DNA of 46,996 nt from contig JAGQMJ010000003.1 in the NCBI GenBank assembly GCA_020428685.1, positions 1 through 46,996 on the forward strand, in the 5' to 3' direction. The stretch comes from Candidatus Kaiserbacteria bacterium (GTDB taxonomy: Bacteria > Patescibacteriota > Minisyncoccia > Phycocordibacterales > UBA918). The notes below the pieces were generated by a model that had not been told where the DNA came from, ran no database searches, and saw only the letters and a list, made by a program, of their open reading frames with translations. Positions within the stretch are counted from its first letter, which is position 1. The number at the start of each line of letters is the position of its first letter. Below are positions 5,613 through 44,835 of the stretch, one piece after another. The translations under genes were made by a program, and so were the position numbers.

Positions 5613-6053
5613 ATGCCTTTTCCGGAGAAAAAATTAGAAGTGTTGCAGACTGTCGATAATGCTTTCGACATTGGAACTCGAGAAAACTACATACTAAATA
5701 ACTGGTTGCTATTGATTAATCTTCTCTTGATAGGGGTGTTTGCGCTAGATGTAGCGGAACACTTTAACTATTTTCATGCCAGTGAAAATTTTCATGATTT
5801 GATTCGCGATGCAGAAATTATTTTTGGAATGTTGTTTTTGATGGAGTTCACTTTGCGTTCGGTCTTTGTGTATATTCCAGATAAGAAATTTTTGTCTGCC
5901 TATTCCATCATAAACGCGATGGTGATTGTCTCTCTACTAGCACCGCACTTTATTGGTAATTTGGCGCTCTTGCGTTTCTTACAAATCTTTAAAGTCTACA
6001 AGGTCTACAATTTGAATAAGGATAAAAAAAGTTATCACACGGCCAATACATAA
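5613..6053 (+). CDS. Small voltage-sensor-like membrane protein without pore
   Basis: The 146-residue protein has four predicted membrane segments (about residues 29-48, 66-92, 94-112 and 114-130). The layout resembles the S1-S4 module of the ion transport (voltage-gated channel) family: acidic residues in the second segment (DAEIIFGMLFLMEFTLR) and a last segment with regularly spaced basic residues (LLRFLQIFKVYKVY). The S5-pore-S6 part is absent and no downstream gene supplies it. It could be a voltage-sensor-only protein or a degenerate channel. The ATG at 5613 follows a TAATAT-like -10 box by about 10 bases. A terminator closes the gene. Confidence 0.65.
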   Translation: MPFPEKKLEVLQTVDNAFDIGTRENYILNNWLLLINLLLIGVFALDVAEHFNYFHASENFHDLIRDAEIIFGMLFLMEFTLRSVFVYIPDKKFLSAYSIINAMVIVSLLAPHFIGNLALLRFLQIFKVYKVYNLNKDKKSYHTANT

Positions 6054-38643: not shown

Positions 38644-40311
38644 ATGAAGAAAGCAGCAAACAAAACGACGGCCAAGAAAGTGGCTCCGAAGTACATTTTT
38701 GTGGTTGGTGGTGTGATGAGCGGTGTAGGGAAGGGTGTAGCCTCATCTTCAATCGCGACTGTCCTGCAGGCGCGCGGACATAAGGTGACGGCGATGAAGA
38801 TTGATCCGTACATCAACGTAGATGCTGGGACCATGAATCCAACCGAGCACGGCGAAGTTTTTGTTTTGAAAGACGGTCTTGAGACAGATCAAGATATGGG
38901 AAATTATGAAAGATTCCTCAATACTGACCTGCCAAGAATAAACTACATGACCACAGGAAGTGTCTACTTGTCTGTGATTGAGAAAGAAAGAAATTTGGAA
39001 TACAAAGGAAAGAATGTTGAGGTGGTGCCAGACATCCCGCTTGAGGTAATTCGTCGGATTAAAGAAGCTGGAGAAACAGCCGGAGCGGATGTGGTGCAGA
39101 TTGAGGTCGGAGGGACTGTGGGTGAGTATCAAAATGTACTTTTCTTGGAAGCAATTCGTATGATGAAGAGTGACCAGCCGGATGATGTTGCTGTCGTGAT
39201 GGTGAGCTATTTGCCGGTGCCGGGCAGTATCGGTGAAATGAAAACAAAGCCGACTCAGACGGCGGTACGGATGCTCAACAATGCCGGTGTTTTTGCAGAC
39301 ATGATAGTTTGCCGTAGTCCAATCGGAGTTGATATCAAGCGCAAAGAAAAGATTGCCAAGTTCTGTAACGTAAAAGTTGAGAATGTTATTTCAGCTCCTG
39401 ATGTGGAAAGTATTTATGATATTCCTTTAAATTATGAGGAAGACAAACTCTCTTTCCAGCTTTCAGGTATTCTTAATTTACCAAACAAAAAATCCACTGA
39501 CTTAAAAGAGTGGAAGAAGTTTGTAAGTCGATCAAAGTCAGTAACTGTGCCGGTCAAGATTGCGGTGGTTGGCAAGTATTTTAATTCTGGTGATTTCATT
39601 TTGTCCGACGTTTATTTGTCTGTGCTAGAAGCCATCAAATATTCTGCCTATAAACTAAATCTAAAACCAGAAATTTCTTATCTATCTGCTCAAGAATTTT
39701 CTGATAAAAAGCAGCTGAAAAAATTGAAGGACTACGATGGTATCTTGGTGCCTGGAGGATTTGGGTTGACTGGTATAGATGGAAAGCTGAATGTAATTGA
39801 GTATGCCCGCAAAAACAAGATTCCGTATTTTGGAATTTGTTATGGTATGCAGCTTATGGTGCTTGAATACGCCCAAAATGTGGCCAAGCTAAAAAATGCC
39901 AGTACAGCTGAGATTGATGCCAAGGCTGAGCATTTGGTGATTGGAATAATGGATGAGCAGAAAGAAAAGCTGGCACAAAAGAATATGGGTGGCAGTATGC
40001 GTCTTGGTCAGTATCCAGCCAAGCTGACAAAAGGCTCAGTAGCTGCAAAAGCATACAAGGCTGAATTGATTGAGGAGCGGCACAGACATCGGTATGAAGT
40101 CAACCCTGATTACGTGCCGCTCCTCACCGAAAAAGGCCTACGTTTCTCTGGTGTTTCGCCTGATGGTACATTGATGGAAATCGCCGAACTGCCAAAAGAA
40201 GAACATCCATTTTTTGTTGGTGTACAGTTTCATCCAGAATTAAAGGCACGTCCACTCGATCCACACCCGTTGTTTACTGCTTTTATAAAAACCGCTTACG
40301 AGGCAGATTAG
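38644..40311 (+). CDS. pyrG: CTP synthase PyrG
   Basis: A full-length 555-residue CTP synthase: an N-terminal synthetase domain with the P-loop GGVMSGVGKGVASSS and IDPYINVDAGTMNP, and a C-terminal class I glutaminase domain with nucleophile Cys in FGICYGMQ and catalytic His-Glu in GVQFHPE. It converts UTP and glutamine to CTP. A lysine-rich extension (about 15 residues) precedes the conserved start. Stop at 40309-40311 is followed by the tRNA-Gln leader. Confidence 0.97.
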   Translation: MKKAANKTTAKKVAPKYIFVVGGVMSGVGKGVASSSIATVLQARGHKVTAMKIDPYINVDAGTMNPTEHGEVFVLKDGLETDQDMGNYERFLNTDLPRINYMTTGSVYLSVIEKERNLEYKGKNVEVVPDIPLEVIRRIKEAGETAGADVVQIEVGGTVGEYQNVLFLEAIRMMKSDQPDDVAVVMVSYLPVPGSIGEMKTKPTQTAVRMLNNAGVFADMIVCRSPIGVDIKRKEKIAKFCNVKVENVISAPDVESIYDIPLNYEEDKLSFQLSGILNLPNKKSTDLKEWKKFVSRSKSVTVPVKIAVVGKYFNSGDFILSDVYLSVLEAIKYSAYKLNLKPEISYLSAQEFSDKKQLKKLKDYDGILVPGGFGLTGIDGKLNVIEYARKNKIPYFGICYGMQLMVLEYAQNVAKLKNASTAEIDAKAEHLVIGIMDEQKEKLAQKNMGGSMRLGQYPAKLTKGSVAAKAYKAELIEERHRHRYEVNPDYVPLLTEKGLRFSGVSPDGTLMEIAELPKEEHPFFVGVQFHPELKARPLDPHPLFTAFIKTAYEAD

Positions 40312-40397: not shown

Positions 40398-40468
40398 TAC
40401 CCGATCGTCTAATGGTAGGACGACTGGTTTTGGTCCAGTTAATCGGGGTTCGAGTCCCTGTCGGGTAG
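40398..40468 (+). tRNA. tRNA-Gln(UUG)
   Basis: A 71-base cloverleaf: acceptor TACCCGA with TCGGGTA, anticodon stem ACTGG/CCAGT around TTTTGGT giving TTG, and T-arm CGGGG/CCCTG around TTCGAGT. Discriminator G. CCA is not encoded; CAA follows. A gatCA operon in the window suggests that Gln-tRNA(Gln) may be made by the indirect route. Confidence 0.95.
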
Positions 40469-40471
40469 CAA

Positions 40472-40515
40472 ACACAAAAAACAGTCCGAGCGAAAGCTTG
40501 GACTGTTTTTGTGTA
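40472..40515 (+). terminator. Terminator after tRNA-Gln
   Basis: An imperfect long stem (ACAAAAAACAGTCCGAGC with GCTTGGACTGTTTTTGT) around GAAA, ending in a T5 tract. Confidence 0.85.
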
Positions 40516-40557
40516 ACCTGCTTCGGAGACAAGAAATAATCCGGGGGATTATTTCGT

Positions 40558-40567
40558 GGGACTCGAA
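40558..40567 (-). repeat. Inverted copy of the tRNA-Gln T-loop
   Basis: GGGACTCGAA is the exact reverse complement of 40449-40458 in tRNA-Gln. Its position after the tRNA terminator matches the inverted T-loop copy after tRNA-fMet. Confidence 0.45.
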
Positions 40568-40668
40568 AAGCTTTTGATGTAGATTCGACTGGAAGGAGAA
40601 TATATCCAAAAGGTATACTGGTCATGTAATGACCGATACTCCCTGTACGGCAGCACTTAGCATAAGTT

Positions 40669-41169
40669 TTATTTGTTTAAAGAGTAAGTTTCAATATCTA
40701 TTAAGACATCATTTTTTGTAAATAGGTTCTTCAGCTCTCCAGCTTTTTGGAAACCTAATTGTTTGTATAATTTTATTGCAGTCTCATTGCTTTTAGCAAC
40801 GTCAAGATAAATATTTTTTATCTTTGGATTACTCTCTAAAGCATTGATAACTTCAGTTAGTAGTAATAATCCCACACCTTGTCCTCTTTTGCTGGGTAAA
40901 ACAGAAATCGCATTGATTTTAGCACCACTGTTAAAGTTAGCTGACTGTGCTTTGTATATTATTTGACAATAAGCAATCGGAGTCTTGTCTTCGTATGCAA
41001 TGAAGTGTATTAAATCATTATGCTGTAATATCTTCCTCAGTGCTTCAGTGTCAATAATCTCTTGAGATGCCATGAAATCCTCTTCTGAGTAAGAATTTAT
41101 AAACATATAAAGAAGTGACTCTATTTCAGAATCAGATTGTGTTTTGTAGTTTAATTCTAATATATGCAT
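40669..41169 (-). CDS. GNAT-family N-acetyltransferase
   Basis: The 166-residue protein has the GNAT acetyl-CoA loop (LPSKRGQGVGLLLL, the R/Q-x-x-G-x-G pattern), the strand before it (INAISVLP) and the typical C-terminal block YLDVAKSNETAIKLYKQLGF. It transfers an acetyl group to an amine; the substrate is unknown. On the minus strand TATAGT (41176-41181) lies 6 bases before the ATG, so the mRNA is probably leaderless. It is the first gene of the tRNA-Gln island and runs opposite to most neighbours. Confidence 0.9.
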   Translation of the reverse strand: MHILELNYKTQSDSEIESLLYMFINSYSEEDFMASQEIIDTEALRKILQHNDLIHFIAYEDKTPIAYCQIIYKAQSANFNSGAKINAISVLPSKRGQGVGLLLLTEVINALESNPKIKNIYLDVAKSNETAIKLYKQLGFQKAGELKNLFTKNDVLIDIETYSLNK

Positions 41170-41182
41170 AGTCTAACTATAG

Positions 41183-41218
41183 TATAAAAAAAGCACCTAG
41201 CCAATTTGTGGCTAGGTG
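41183..41218 (-). terminator. Terminator of the 41240-41806 gene
   Basis: Ten-bp stem CACCTAGCCA/TGGCTAGGTG (41194-41203 with 41209-41218), followed on the minus strand by seven T residues. Confidence 0.88.
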
Positions 41219-41239
41219 TTATCTACGTGTACTTGAGAG

Positions 41240-41806
41240 TTAGGTGTGGATTGGTACGAGATCGAATGGACCGCTATTTCCTACACAGCTGACCGATGAA
41301 GGTTTACACGAGCCAGCAGTTACAGCGTCCACATGCACTTGAAGTTTGGGGTGCAGTTCATTCCCCCATGTTTGTGTAAGGAGGTGTGCTGTAAAAAAGG
41401 CTGCATTCATGACCATATCATCGCTCATGTCCATTTCATCAATTGGCTCATGGTGGGTATAAACCCCAGTGGTATTGTAGCAGAAGCTCATGTACCATTT
41501 GCTGTTGAGAATCATTTCATGCATCACAGAGTCCACTTCTCCGACAAACATCACATACGACTTTTTGACGGTGACAGATCCCGTGGCATACCACTGAACG
41601 AAGGCCTTGATGAGTTGGTCTGCCTCAGCGTGGTCTTTTGCAATTTTTTCACGCAACAGGCCACGGACAATTGGACTAAAGTCCTGGCTCGCTATGATTT
41701 TTGCAAAAAGAGATTTTGCGTCAGGACAGCTCGGCAGTTCCTTCAAAGGGACTACGGGTTCTGTGTATTGCTGTTCACTAGTTGAGCGTGCATTTATTGC
41801 GGTCAT
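41240..41806 (-). CDS. Protein with GRDP/DUF1399-like motif
   Basis: I do not recognise a characterised bacterial gene. The 188-residue soluble protein contains YVMFVGEVDSVMHEMILNSK, then a FCYNTTGVYTHHEP block. This pattern (D-x-x-x-H-x-x-I-L, FC, then HHxP) resembles the repeat of glycine-rich-domain (GRDP/DUF1399) proteins, usually written DEVWHxHIL...FC...HHxP, from memory. A role as metal or ligand binder is possible but unproven. ATG 41806 is preferred because a GGAG ribosome site lies 7 bases before it. The C-terminus has a Cys pair (AGSCKPSSVSCVG). Confidence 0.7.
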   Translation of the reverse strand: MTAINARSTSEQQYTEPVVPLKELPSCPDAKSLFAKIIASQDFSPIVRGLLREKIAKDHAEADQLIKAFVQWYATGSVTVKKSYVMFVGEVDSVMHEMILNSKWYMSFCYNTTGVYTHHEPIDEMDMSDDMVMNAAFFTAHLLTQTWGNELHPKLQVHVDAVTAGSCKPSSVSCVGNSGPFDLVPIHT

Positions 41807-42053
41807 GATATTTCTCCGTATGACAATATTCACAAAGAGTGTAAATTAATACATCAAAGTGGCTTGAAAAGTCAAAGAACGGTGTTCTTTGTAACTATCC
41901 ATACATAAATTTAACATGGACATTTCATAAGTAAAGACAACGTTAAGGTTCAATAGCTTGGAAACACTTTGTAAGTAAATGCTAAATGTAAATAGGGACA
42001 GGGACAAATAATAATAAAAACATTTATGGCAAGAAATGTTAAATATTTTATAC

Positions 42054-42085
42054 AAAAGTTATAACATCGTCCCAGACAGCTAGCA
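42054..42085 (+). repeat. Island repeat copy 1 (precedes the 42371 gene)
   Basis: AAAAGTT-NN-AACATCGTCCCAGAC, then AGCT and TAGCA. The first 28 bases match copy 4 (43918-43945) at 25 positions. The 3' part (42069-42085) matches 13 of 17 bases of the tRNA-Gln 3' end. It is followed by a hairpin. Confidence 0.7.
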
Positions 42086-42087
42086 TA

Positions 42088-42132
42088 ATTTAGTTTGACC
42101 CCAATGCGCATGTATTGGGGTCTTACTAAATT
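42088..42132. terminator. Hairpin downstream of island repeat copy 1
   Basis: Inner stem GACCCCAAT/ATTGGGGTC (42097-42105 with 42114-42122) within an outer AATTTAGT/ACTAAATT repeat. It has no T-run, but occupies the same relative position as the terminators after the tRNA genes. Confidence 0.5.
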
Positions 42133-42142
42133 ACCTGACCGT

Positions 42143-42288
42143 AGGGACTCGAACCGAGACGGCGCAAAGCCCGACGTAACGAAGTGGAGTCGGAGCCGTC
42201 GAGTGGGGGTCTAGGGAGTGAGATATTTTGGAGTTCGTAGAACGAACAAAGTATCCACGAGAGTGACCGAGTCCCTATCGAGTAGTAA
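42143..42288 (+). repeat. tRNA-Gln-like remnant: inverted T-arm plus direct 3' end
   Basis: 42143-42155 is the exact 13-base reverse complement of the tRNA-Gln T-arm (40447-40459), and 42268-42288 matches the tRNA-Gln 3' end (40451-40471) at 18 of 21 positions. The 112 bases between hold no reading frame. The order (hairpin, inverted T-arm, direct 3' end) is the same as after tRNA-fMet. The 540-base gap 41807-42370 otherwise shows no gene. Confidence 0.75.
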
Positions 42289-42370
42289 GTATTGACAAGC
42301 GTCACTTATTGTGCTATTTTGCTGTAAGCACGTTTGAGTATTTCAAAAATTAAGTTAAGGAGTAGAAGGT

Positions 42371-42646
42371 ATGAAGTTTTTCGTTTTGGTACTGTGTCTG
42401 TTGCTTTCAAATGTTTCAGCAGCGGAAGGGAATACGATTGAACGCAATTGGGATGGTTCAATAACAATCATTCGGGACATCGAGGAATATACCGAAGAAG
42501 AATATAAGGCCTTGGTGGCTATTTGTAAGGAGGTGCGGGAAAAACACTGCCGGCCAAACGACTGTGACGCTATCTCTGTACCTAGTTGTCCGTACAATGA
42601 TTTTCAACCTCCAGTAATCCTTAAGATCTCGCCGTCAAAAAAATAA
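42371..42646 (+). CDS. Small secreted Cys-containing protein
   Basis: I do not recognise a family. The 91-residue protein has a clear signal peptide (residues 1-18, MKFFVLVLCLLLSNVSAAEG), so the mature form is about 72 residues. It is acidic in the middle (REIEEYTEEEY-like) and has four Cys in the second half (ICKEV, KHCRPNDCDAI, PSCPY), likely forming two disulfides. An AAGGAG ribosome site lies before the ATG. It is cassette gene 1 of the island, preceded by a repeat copy and followed by a hairpin terminator. Confidence 0.75.
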   Translation: MKFFVLVLCLLLSNVSAAEGNTIERNWDGSITIIRDIEEYTEEEYKALVAICKEVREKHCRPNDCDAISVPSCPYNDFQPPVILKISPSKK

Positions 42647-42657
42647 ACGGCGACATG

Positions 42658-42697
42658 GCCAGCAAGAATAGTCAGAGTACATCTTGTTGGCTATTTT
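42658..42697 (+). terminator. Terminator of the small secreted protein gene
   Basis: Ten-bp stem GCCAGCAAGA/TCTTGTTGGC (42658-42667 with 42682-42691, one G-U pair) followed by a T5 tract. Confidence 0.85.
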
Positions 42698-42705
42698 TGT
42701 GTCAA

Positions 42706-42737
42706 AAAAGTTCTAATATCGTCCCTGTCGGGTAGCA
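42706..42737 (+). repeat. Island repeat copy 2 (precedes the NYN gene)
   Basis: AAAAGTT-CT-AATATC, then a 17-base segment (42721-42737) identical to the tRNA-Gln 3' end (40454-40470), including the discriminator and CA. It lies 77 bases before the NYN start codon. Confidence 0.85.
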
Positions 42738-42813
42738 GCATATTTTGGTTAAATACAACCGCGTAAAAATTTCTGCTTCTGATAAGAAGTTGTTTTTTGA
42801 TATACTGTATATC

Positions 42814-43338
42814 ATGAAGAATATAGCCTACATAGATGGTCAGAATCTGTTTATGGGAACTACTAAACGAGATCCAGAATGGAATGTGGATCTTTATCGC
42901 TTTAGAGTTTATCTGCAAGATAAATACAATGTAGATAAAGCGTATTACTTTTTGGGATATGTACAAGAGGGTAATAAAAGTGAGGAGCTTTATGAGGCAA
43001 TACAATCTGCTGGGTTCATACTTGTATTTCGTCAGCATAACTCAGCCATGATTGGTCAAAAGAAAGGTAACGTAGACTCTGACATTATATTTTCAATTAT
43101 GAAGAAAATGTATCACAAAGAAGAGTTTAATAAGATCGTCTTAGTTTCCGGTGATGGTGATTATAAAATGTTAGTTGATTTTCTTCTTGAAGAAGAAAAG
43201 TTAGAGAAAATCCTTTTTCCAAAGCAGCGTTTTGCCTCTTCTTTGTATAAGGCTATTGATTCTAGATATTTTACTGATTTATCTAACGAAGGAGTAAGAA
43301 GAAAAATTGCAAATGAAAGGGGCTCCTTAGGTAATTAA
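42814..43338 (+). CDS. NYN-domain (LabA/DUF88) protein, putative RNase
   Basis: The 174-residue protein is a single NYN/PIN-like domain with its acidic sites: YIDGQNLF near residue 8, GNVDSDIIFSIM in the middle, and VLVSGDGDYKMLVDFL. NYN domains bind metal and cleave RNA; LabA/DUF88 members occur widely, some in defence or RNA decay. ATG 42814 is chosen because TATACT (42801-42806) ends 7 bases before it, so the mRNA is probably leaderless. Cassette gene 2 of the island, with repeat copy 2 upstream and a hairpin over its 3' end. The target is unknown. Confidence 0.9.
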   Translation: MKNIAYIDGQNLFMGTTKRDPEWNVDLYRFRVYLQDKYNVDKAYYFLGYVQEGNKSEELYEAIQSAGFILVFRQHNSAMIGQKKGNVDSDIIFSIMKKMYHKEEFNKIVLVSGDGDYKMLVDFLLEEEKLEKILFPKQRFASSLYKAIDSRYFTDLSNEGVRRKIANERGSLGN

Positions 43339-43356
43339 CCGTTTGGAGCCCCTTTC
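43315..43356 (+). terminator. Terminator overlapping the 3' end of the NYN gene
   Basis: Perfect 12-bp arms 43315-43326 and 43345-43356 around an 18-base loop that contains the stop codon; the stem is therefore partly coding. It ends in CTTTC rather than a long T-run. Confidence 0.75.
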
Positions 43357-43411
43357 GTCGTGATATCTATATTATACGTATGTACGCTAAAAGATCAAGG
43401 GTGTGAACTAA

Positions 43412-43443
43412 AAAAGTTCCAGCTTCATTCTTGTCGGTCAGCA
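43412..43443 (+). repeat. Island repeat copy 3, degenerate (precedes the 43566 gene)
   Basis: AAAAGTTCC followed by a segment matching copy 2 at 14 of 23 positions, including TGTCGG and the final AGCA. The weakest of the four copies; supported mainly by position. Confidence 0.5.
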
Positions 43444-43526
43444 CCGAGTTTTAGCTATATTCAATAACAGATAAACGGTTGTCTTGTGCGCCAGTCGTAT
43501 CATTTTTTAGTAGAATCAAAACTTAG

Positions 43527-43555
43527 TTGCGAAACTCGCTATTAGGTTGTACTCT
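43527..43555 (+). promoter_or_regulatory. Promoter of the 43566 gene
   Basis: TTGCGA (43527-43532), a 17-base spacer and TACTCT (43550-43555), 10 bases before the ATG at 43566. Confidence 0.6.
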
Positions 43556-43565
43556 GATATATACA

Positions 43566-43853
43566 ATGGGAATCATTCAAGAACAAGGATTGAAAGTGGA
43601 AGCAGAAATGAAGAAGCTCGAAGAAATGGGAGGTTCGGTTTCAGGAAGATTCAAGAATTTACGCAACTCAGCTTTTACTCGGTTTCCGATGTTGTTTGTT
43701 CTGCTAACTTCTTTTGGGTTGGTCGCAACATTCTATGGTTTTGAAAAGGTGATTGACCAGATTCCGTACTTTACTGAAAATCCACACATGATATTGGTAA
43801 CAGGTGTTAGTATCTTGCTTTTTACTGGTGCTCTATATAAGAAACTTAGTTAG
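43566..43853 (+). CDS. Small membrane protein with two helices
   Basis: I do not recognise a named family, though similar proteins are, to my recollection, common in Patescibacteria. The 95-residue product has a charged N-terminal helix (residues 1-35; GLKVEAEMKKLEEMGGSVSG) and two transmembrane helices (about 43-60 and 73-92) with a short loop. ATG 43566 fits the promoter upstream, which overlaps the longer frame. Cassette gene 3 of the island, preceded by repeat copy 3. The function is unknown. Confidence 0.75.
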   Translation: MGIIQEQGLKVEAEMKKLEEMGGSVSGRFKNLRNSAFTRFPMLFVLLTSFGLVATFYGFEKVIDQIPYFTENPHMILVTGVSILLFTGALYKKLS

Positions 43854-43917
43854 GTGTTGTTCGGCTTAGATGCCTTTATTCTTGAAGAAAAGATATTTAG
43901 GTATGATTCTTTCTCGT

Positions 43918-43948
43918 AAAAGTTCCAACATCGTCCCAGACGGCTTAT
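43918..43948 (+). repeat. Island repeat copy 4 (precedes the 44020 gene)
   Basis: AAAAGTTCCAACATCGTCCC, then AGACGGCT: 25 of 28 bases as in copy 1. It is followed by a 7-bp palindrome GCTTATG/CATAAGC (43943-43949 and 43963-43969). Confidence 0.7.
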
Positions 43949-44019
43949 GGATTGCGGCAGTTCATAAGCTTGTGATAAGGTTGAGTGGGTATATGTGATA
44001 GTTTCACGAGGGGAAGGAA

Positions 44020-44400
44020 ATGGAAATCATATCTGCGTTGTTCTCTGACTATCTTCAGCTGCTGAATTCTTGGTGGTGGTTACTGCTAGGAGGGGTGACG
44101 ATGGTGAGTACTGTCGTCTATGTGTTGAGGGATTTTGATAAGAGTCTGTCTTTTCTTAAATCTCTGCAGCTTACCATTGTGGGTTTAGCTGACTTTTTAC
44201 CAGGTTTTCGTAATTTTTTCCCTAGAGAAATAAGAGCTGATTTTAGAAAGCTTTGGATTGCTACTGGTCTAGATAGCCCTCGGCTGTTTATTCTGATTTT
44301 GTTCGCACTGTCCTTTCTGATGGCGCCTCTGTCCTTCTTGATTTGTTTTGGTCTATTGGTGAATGATTATTTTACTTTCCAAACAAAAAACCGCCGGTAA
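44020..44400 (+). CDS. Small membrane protein
   Basis: I do not recognise a family. The 126-residue protein has an N-terminal hydrophobic segment (about residues 14-36, containing WWWLLLGGV), a basic central region (about 40-88) with a shorter hydrophobic stretch, and a C-terminal transmembrane segment (about 90-118). It has a GGGGAAGGAA ribosome site directly before the ATG. Cassette gene 4 of the island, preceded by repeat copy 4 and closed by a terminator overlapping its 3' end. Confidence 0.7.
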   Translation: MEIISALFSDYLQLLNSWWWLLLGGVTMVSTVVYVLRDFDKSLSFLKSLQLTIVGLADFLPGFRNFFPREIRADFRKLWIATGLDSPRLFILILFALSFLMAPLSFLICFGLLVNDYFTFQTKNRR

Positions 44401-44439: not shown

Positions 44440-44835
44440 TTACTCCTTGCTTCGCTTGAAACAATCAAGACACTTCAGATTACTTGTGTCGCGCGGATTG
44501 AAGGGGAGTGATGTGATAGCTCCGCCACAGCCGGCACAGCTCCAGTTGCCTTCAATTTTTTGTCGTTCACCAGGGGTGATAGGTGTAGCATCAAAACCAT
44601 CGTCAGCTGGCATTGGTTCACTAGCTAGTCCTGCTTCATCGGGGATATCGTAGGGTTCTTCAGCCGGCATAGATGCTTCAGCTGGTACTGCTCCTCCACC
44701 AGAATGAGAGCTGCTTGAGCCTTTAGACTTGGCATAGCAAGTGCGGCAAGTTAGTCCTGACTCACTTCTTGGTTGAAATGGAAGTTCCGTAATGGCTCCT
44801 CCACAAGTGCTACATTTCCAATTTCCTTGATGCAT
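44440..44835 (-). CDS. Protein with two zinc-ribbon modules
   Basis: The 131-residue protein has two copies of one zinc-ribbon module, at residues 5-38 (WKCSTCGGAITELPFQP, then CRTCY) and about 95-128 (WSCAGCGGAITSLPFNP, then CLDCF), linked by an acidic, low-complexity spacer rich in Pro, Ala, Ser and Glu. Each module has two CxxC pairs that should bind one zinc. Such ribbons bind nucleic acid or protein. The divergent neighbour carries a third copy of the module, so the two genes are probably related in function. No enzyme domain is present. Confidence 0.85.
   Translation of the reverse strand: MHQGNWKCSTCGGAITELPFQPRSESGLTCRTCYAKSKGSSSSHSGGGAVPAEASMPAEEPYDIPDEAGLASEPMPADDGFDATPITPGERQKIEGNWSCAGCGGAITSLPFNPRDTSNLKCLDCFKRSKE

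Follow-up and report, generated by a model that had tools for sequence, protein, structure and literature searches.

The DNA considered here, referred to as the window, is the whole of a 46,996-nucleotide stretch from a Candidatus Kaiserbacteria bacterium (assembly GCA_020428685.1, contig JAGQMJ010000003.1), which is contig 33 of a 64-contig, 808-kb genome that is 88.5% complete. The window carries a row of small genes set between copies of a short site, and we found that this row is probably a gene-cassette array, with a tRNA-Gln gene as its anchor and the attP-type arms of large serine integrases as its boundaries.

A recurrent site between unrelated small genes

The pattern AAAAGTTNNAAYATCGTCCC was present without mismatch at window positions 42054, 42706 and 43918 (three matches compared to 0.10 expected from dinucleotide shuffles), and a fourth, degenerate copy at 43412 reached 24 bits when scored with a profile derived from relatives. 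The four copies listed in the initial annotation of this DNA are thus real, and each is followed, as had been described there, by one main small open reading frame (ORF), encoding a small apparently secreted protein, an NYN-domain protein and two small membrane proteins. In a control covering 922 kb, the true profile returned 199 matches of at least 18 bits, including the sites used for training, and the reversed profile returned 0. Among 63 good copies, conservation extended from an A-rich run at -6 to approximately +26, with nothing conserved beyond; the consensus is a 32-bp sequence, AAAAA-GTTCYAACATCGTCCCAGACGGCCAGC, made up of a core and a tail.

We then assessed how widely the site is spread. 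It was found in 32 of 99 genomes (the window's own and its relatives), among which the reversed pattern was nearly absent, and a sequence-only model placed it in 29 of the 49 genomes of the family. A phylum-wide draw recorded the site in 13 of 380 genomes, two of these from the window's own genus; evidence outside the order is thin, as the phylum-wide site genomes seldom show a matching tRNA in view. Among public genome contigs, a 30-base pattern was encountered in 18 stretches, all of them metagenome-assembled genomes, of which 16 bear Patescibacteria-group names (Parcubacteria, Paceibacterota, Kaiserbacteria and similar) and two are named just 'bacterium'. The 27 exact core matches on viral contigs (L290-L316) were set aside as coincidence and are a pitfall for searches: the eight that were inspected lie antisense inside or alongside a gene that, judged by inspection of a WDDVxTF motif, seems to encode a C5 DNA methyltransferase.

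Across the family, copies of the motif separate small genes that are unrelated to one another. For consecutive sites (no more than 3.5 kb apart, with ORFs counted from 60 amino acids upward), the orientation was identical in all 54 pairs, the median site-to-site spacing was 669 bp, and exactly one ORF occupied 37 of the 54 intervals. Most of these interval ORFs (57/67) run in the reading direction of the site, and in 42 of 78 cases the site has a stop codon no more than 30 bp away. Rows of 11 and five sites were encountered in a member of another family (G096), and six sites stand behind tRNA-Gln in Parcubacteria bacterium C7867-008.

The contents of the arrays are diverse, with nine groups common to different genomes among 190 ORFs. 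The window's NYN protein group recurs between two sites in G031, and a group of alpha/beta hydrolase-like proteins was found in three different arrays. Cargo families include NUDIX, HD, GNAT, peptidase S51, NYN, deformylase and RelB/YafQ. On contig 19 of G012 (L271 / L147), two sites enclose the cassette that follows a tRNA-Ser integrase element, and this cassette is a RelB-YafQ toxin-antitoxin pair.

Anchoring at tRNA genes

A same-strand tRNA was found no more than 7.5 kb upstream of 24 of the 36 site clusters for which the sequence reaches at least 5 kb upstream or a tRNA is visible; eight further clusters are cut by the end of the locus. These 24 head tRNAs comprise 18 Gln, two Val, two Ser, one Pro and one Met. 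A tRNA-Gln head is expected by chance in approximately 1% of clusters, and the binomial probability stays below 1e-17 even at 3%. The tail of the site follows the head tRNA, ending in ...CAGC or ...TAGC for Gln, ...GTGCAC for Val and ...CCCGC for Ser, and a Gln-, Val- or Ser-type tail fits in nearly all clusters.

Exact tail copies were rarer, being seen between a G040 site and tRNA-Gln, between the terminal site of the L198 element and tRNA-Ser (12 nt), and between window site 2 and the upstream tRNA-Gln. Window site 2 shares GTCCCTGTCGGGTAGCA with the 3' end of this tRNA, and the match that had been reported for the second copy is correct. At L159 and L145, the approximately 50 bp following the tRNA recur after the site. 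The BaiN-side flank was also considered as an anchor and was rejected, as the position of BaiN varies and the array adjoins it in three species only.

An array-free allele at the pyrG locus

Between species, the DNA synteny of pyrG and its neighbours breaks off near tRNA-Gln(TTG), and the ORFs behind this tRNA almost never recur among the 24 genomes in which it is in view. The downstream genes at this locus differ between species, and one relative, G027, is without the insertion. A block of fixed content conserved across relatives is excluded on these grounds. In G027, a homologue of the window's zinc-finger gene lies no more than approximately 60 bp behind tRNA-Gln, whereas the same gene is approximately 4 kb from tRNA-Gln in the window. 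The G027 tRNA end and flank, TCCCTGTCGGGTAGC|AGCAT, are present exactly at window site 2 and the sequence to its right. As 15 of the 20 matching bases are tRNA, the informative part is the five beyond, with a chance of about 1 in 1000. The site 2 junction has the appearance expected of attR after a tRNA-directed insertion.

The array begins at tRNA-Gln itself, and positions 40470-42058 are probably cargo too, because the protein encoded at 41240 is homologous to a cassette ORF in G036. The initial annotation had proposed a cassette array built by recombination at a tRNA-derived site and had started it at the first motif copy; the comparisons support the array, its start is moved to the tRNA, and recombination would be the process behind it. 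The features of the locus are listed below.

Table 1. Features of the tRNA-Gln locus and its cassette array in the window
Feature	Position	Strand	Evidence
pyrG (CTP synthase), conserved left flank	38644..40311	+	Between-species DNA synteny; pyrG then tRNA-Gln in ~25 genomes of the genus
tRNA-Gln(TTG), proposed attB left arm and array anchor	40398..40469	+	ARAGORN; GTTC 22 nt before 3' end
GNAT acetyltransferase, probable head cargo	40669..41169	-	PF00583
Hypothetical protein, probable head cargo	41240..41806	-	Homologous ORF flanked by two sites in G036 (L041)
Site 1, 44 bits, core and tail AGACAGCTAGC	42052..42084	+	Profile scan and pattern
Cassette ORF, small protein, apparent signal peptide and several Cys (by inspection)	42371..42646	+	No Pfam match
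Site 2, 39 bits, core and exact tRNA-Gln tail	42704..42736	+	Profile scan; 20-nt exact match TCCCTGTCGGGTAGCAGCAT to G027
Cassette ORF, NYN-domain nuclease	42814..43338	+	PF01936 E=1.9e-15; homologous NYN ORF in G031
Site 3, 24 bits, degenerate, then GAGTTTTAGCTATATTCAAT resembling the proposed right half-site	43410..43442	+	Profile scan
Cassette ORF, small membrane protein	43566..43853	+	
Site 4, 40 bits, last of array	43916..43948	+	Pattern and profile scan
Last cargo ORF, membrane protein	44020..44400	+	
Zinc-finger protein (zf_Tbcl_2), right flank; directly behind tRNA-Gln in G027	44440..44835	-	PF23477

Several further structures were noted around the tRNA genes. Behind tRNA-Gln (window 40470-40580; L210, L216, L234, L238) lies a terminator-like hairpin, often followed by an inverted copy of the tRNA 3' end or T-arm. 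Inverted tRNA-Gln copies, e.g., GGGACTCGAA at approximately window 40560 and 42150, form a long palindrome with the tRNA. The window region 42150-42290, between site 1 and the first cassette ORF, is GC-rich and contains tRNA-arm-like pieces in both orientations. At L145 (reverse-complemented, 5950-6010), approximately 50 bp past tRNA-Gln(CTG), there is a second, partial tRNA-Gln 3' piece, and the flank is repeated after the last site.

Serine integrases at the same tRNAs

Large serine recombinases were identified in 59 of 98 relatives, and in the window's genome the sole match is on another contig. At about 20 of the loci examined, a serine integrase gene ends antisense within or beside a tRNA, the tRNAs concerned being Gln, Ser, Gly, Arg, Leu, Glu, Tyr, Asn, His and Val. 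From the Val-type tails of G022 and the Ser-type tails of G012, it had been noted beforehand that tRNA-Val and tRNA-Ser should occur at integrase genes, and both were found. Elements running from a tRNA through an integrase to a site were found at L152 (Gln, 3.3 kb), L198 (Ser, 5.0 kb) and L271 (Ser, 5.8 kb). A search with the +5 spacing, which used six bases at GTTC plus the tRNA tail only and left out the middle core bases, added GTTCGAACATCGT... downstream of tRNA-Gly (L260) and, in the case of tRNA-Ser (L269), two sites. All five integrases that were scanned contain PF00239 and PF07508, and four contain PF13408; two proteins adjoining integrases match G2P-type Reps (PF23343, PF05144). The L271 element on G012 contig 19 also bears an apparent C5 methyltransferase, as judged by inspection. 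At L270, position 6452, an 18-nt copy of the tRNA-Val 3' end stands between the integrase and the first site, which suggests two insertions stacked at one tRNA.

Counting back from the 3' end, the distance to the start of GTTC is 22 nt in tRNAs and 27 nt in sites, those with exact tails included. According to Rutherford et al. 2013 (PMC3783163), attB sites of serine integrases hold the zinc-domain motif 5 bp nearer to the crossover than attP sites do. Because the 22/27 offset of GTTC matches this attB/attP shift, the tRNA T-arm can be read as the attB arm and the core of the site as the attP arm, with the crossover inferred to lie near the last bases of the tail. The earlier description of the site as derived from tRNA-Gln holds for its tail, which is tRNA-like, and not for its core, in which GTTC is 5 bp further out than in the tRNA.

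The initial annotation had looked to a tyrosine recombinase as the partner of the site; a large serine integrase of the kind found at tRNA heads in other genomes is the likelier candidate. Tyrosine recombinases (PF00589) were present in 94 of 98 relatives, mostly as one Xer-type enzyme each and irrespective of arrays, and a tyrosine recombinase is accordingly no obvious partner. A PF00589 search found none in the window's genome at its 88.5% completeness, and there was no Xer match among the ORFs of the array loci, the query's own excepted.

Proposed mechanism and alternative explanations

Our proposal is that the tRNA 3' end (T-arm and acceptor end) would serve as attB, and that the right end of each cassette would carry the element-side arm GTTCYAACATCGTCC... 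followed by a tail that fits the tRNA 3' end around the crossover. A serine integrase would join circular DNA at that crossover, and repeated events at one tRNA would build a row of units, each bounded by core and tail. The integrases would come from Rep-bearing elements that occupy tRNAs of the same kinds, and the one-gene cassettes, which lack an integrase, would be non-autonomous passengers moved in trans. We infer the enzymatic step, the circular intermediates, the movement of single cassettes and the location of the crossover dinucleotide from the comparisons above. That the arrays constitute an integron-analogous capture platform based on large serine integrases, in which one-gene cassettes with attP arms gather behind Patescibacteria tRNAs and are moved in trans by the integrases of small Rep elements, we regard as an evenly balanced proposition.

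A number of observations weigh against this interpretation. Standard serine integrases are not known to recombine attL and attP, which leaves the growth of a row, a process that needs repeated insertion at one tRNA, unexplained. Some arrays (G096 C1) are without a tRNA nearby, and the +5 spacing search returned no convincing site behind the tRNA-Glu, -Asn, -His and -Leu integrases. The proposed right half-site, TTTTAGCYTTATTTTNCAA approximately 6 bp past the tail, stands out in only about 15 of the 106 sites. Where the head is tRNA-Val, the exact 18-nt tRNA copy is nearer than the first site, and the tRNA-Val integrase may not be the owner of the sites behind it. The label of having a site at the far end is spread over several integrase lineages (four changes on the tree; 5 of 500 shuffles were as low), and a single integrase clade for all sites is unsupported. 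Finally, a large serine integrase was undetected in the site-bearing genomes G004, G017, G023, G040, G051 and G063.

The last point would be expected if the units were scars of accretion, that is, remnants of larger tRNA-inserted elements that have lost their integrase and Rep, with the sites as old attR and the cassettes never mobile in their own right. Complete elements of the order tRNA-integrase-Rep-cargo-site, spanning 3.3 to 6 kb, do exist, and tails and cores are often degenerate across sites. Against this, the units are uniformly small, with single ORFs packed tightly up to the site; a list of 25 Pfam families drawn from 49 cassette proteins contains no recombinase family, and successive G096 units are without any gene of the integrase element. 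The small unit size and ORF packing argue for mobile cassettes over scars without settling the matter, and we consider the scar account unlikely while ranking it first among the alternatives. We think it improbable that another recombinase owns the sites, such as the single Xer-type tyrosine recombinase of each genome, with the serine integrases merely sharing tRNA hotspots. Such enzymes are nearly ubiquitous among the relatives, and tRNA ends are common targets of tyrosine integrases (Islander, PMC4383910), but the sites lack the clear inverted arms of dif-type sites, the same site ends serine-integrase elements whose tRNA types match the tails, and the 5-bp spacing rule is a serine-integrase trait.

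Some sites fall just after terminators and just upstream of promoter-like sequence, as would a regulatory or structural intergenic repeat (a promoter element or terminator-linked repeat) with no role in recombination. This is very improbable and was rejected for a promoter or regulator box in particular: some sites adjoin convergent genes (L048:6596), the tail type tracks the head tRNA of the array, sites mark the far end of integrase elements, and an array-free allele exists. Least credible of all is a divergent integron, in which the sites would be attC worked by an integron integrase. One-gene cassettes in a single orientation, diverse contents and ORF ends near the site are all integron-like; the sites themselves show no attC-like folding (mean z of about -1.0 and -1.1 on the two strands), and inverted partners are at chance level (9 compared to 12 in shuffles), in agreement with the earlier remark that no recognisable attC is present. 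The relatives' mostly single Xer-type enzymes were not seen at arrays, and the anchor is a tRNA rather than attI.

Comparison with known systems

Our preferred reading, a tRNA-anchored cassette array bounded by serine-integrase arms, has partial counterparts in several known systems. Integron arrays resemble it in that single genes follow one another in rows, mostly in the same sense and each with one short site, in that the sites share one orientation, and in their diverse contents; one-gene cassettes in one orientation were observed here. They differ in that neither an array-linked IntI nor an attC hairpin with inverted R/L boxes was found, and in the tRNA anchor and serine-integrase site spacing of the present arrays. 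Tandem composites are known for the SCC / ECC cassette chromosomes. In these, the large serine recombinases Ccr act at rlmH, inserting at the 3' end of a conserved gene and leaving remnants at the locus (PMC6222049); the arrays described here differ in having a tRNA target, one-gene units of approximately 0.7 kb as opposed to tens of kilobases, so no more than a tenth as large, and as many as 11 consecutive sites. Large serine integrases of phages and islands (A118/LI type, PMC3783163) have the same Resolvase-Recombinase-zinc ribbon make-up and 5-bp attP/attB rule, and integrase-bearing elements bounded by two sites were found here (L152, L198 and L271, with L260 and L269 from the +5 search). 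The differences are that attB would here be the T-arm and 3' end of a tRNA and that the cassettes in rows are without integrases.

The tRNA-linked islands (tycheposons and Islander-type islands) likewise use the tRNA 3' end as integration point and have a tRNA-like repeat at the far end, but are kilobases to tens of kilobases long. Tycheposons are mostly tyrosine-recombinase elements, as are Islander-type islands (PMC4383910), whereas serine integrases stand at the tRNA ends here. Inoviruses and satellites occur in rows at dif, as in CTX/RS1. Small satellites next to helper elements are a feature shared with the present loci, and the integrase elements carry G2P-type Reps as inoviruses do (PMC6813254); the cassettes are without Rep, and integration would be by a serine integrase at a tRNA. 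G2P-type Rep was the sole match of the two Rep proteins scanned, and no gene for morphogenesis was identified, although no search aimed at the pI/Zot ATPase was made. No description of such arrays in Patescibacteria was found in the open literature, and precedents exist for the parts, namely the serine integrase, the tRNA target and tandem accretion.

Significance for Patescibacteria

Little is known of how Patescibacteria, whose genomes are very small, acquire genes. If true, a cassette system sited at tRNA genes would explain hypervariable loci and would supply a list of mobile single genes (NUDIX, HD, GNAT, NYN, toxin-antitoxin, peptidases and many unknowns). It would also mean that integron-like gene collection is possible on an unrelated class of recombinase, and the T-arm as a common attB half-site would provide a rule by which serine integrases that target tRNAs, and the sites they use, could be predicted. 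Should single cassettes be shown to move, these arrays would represent a new kind of gene-capture system.

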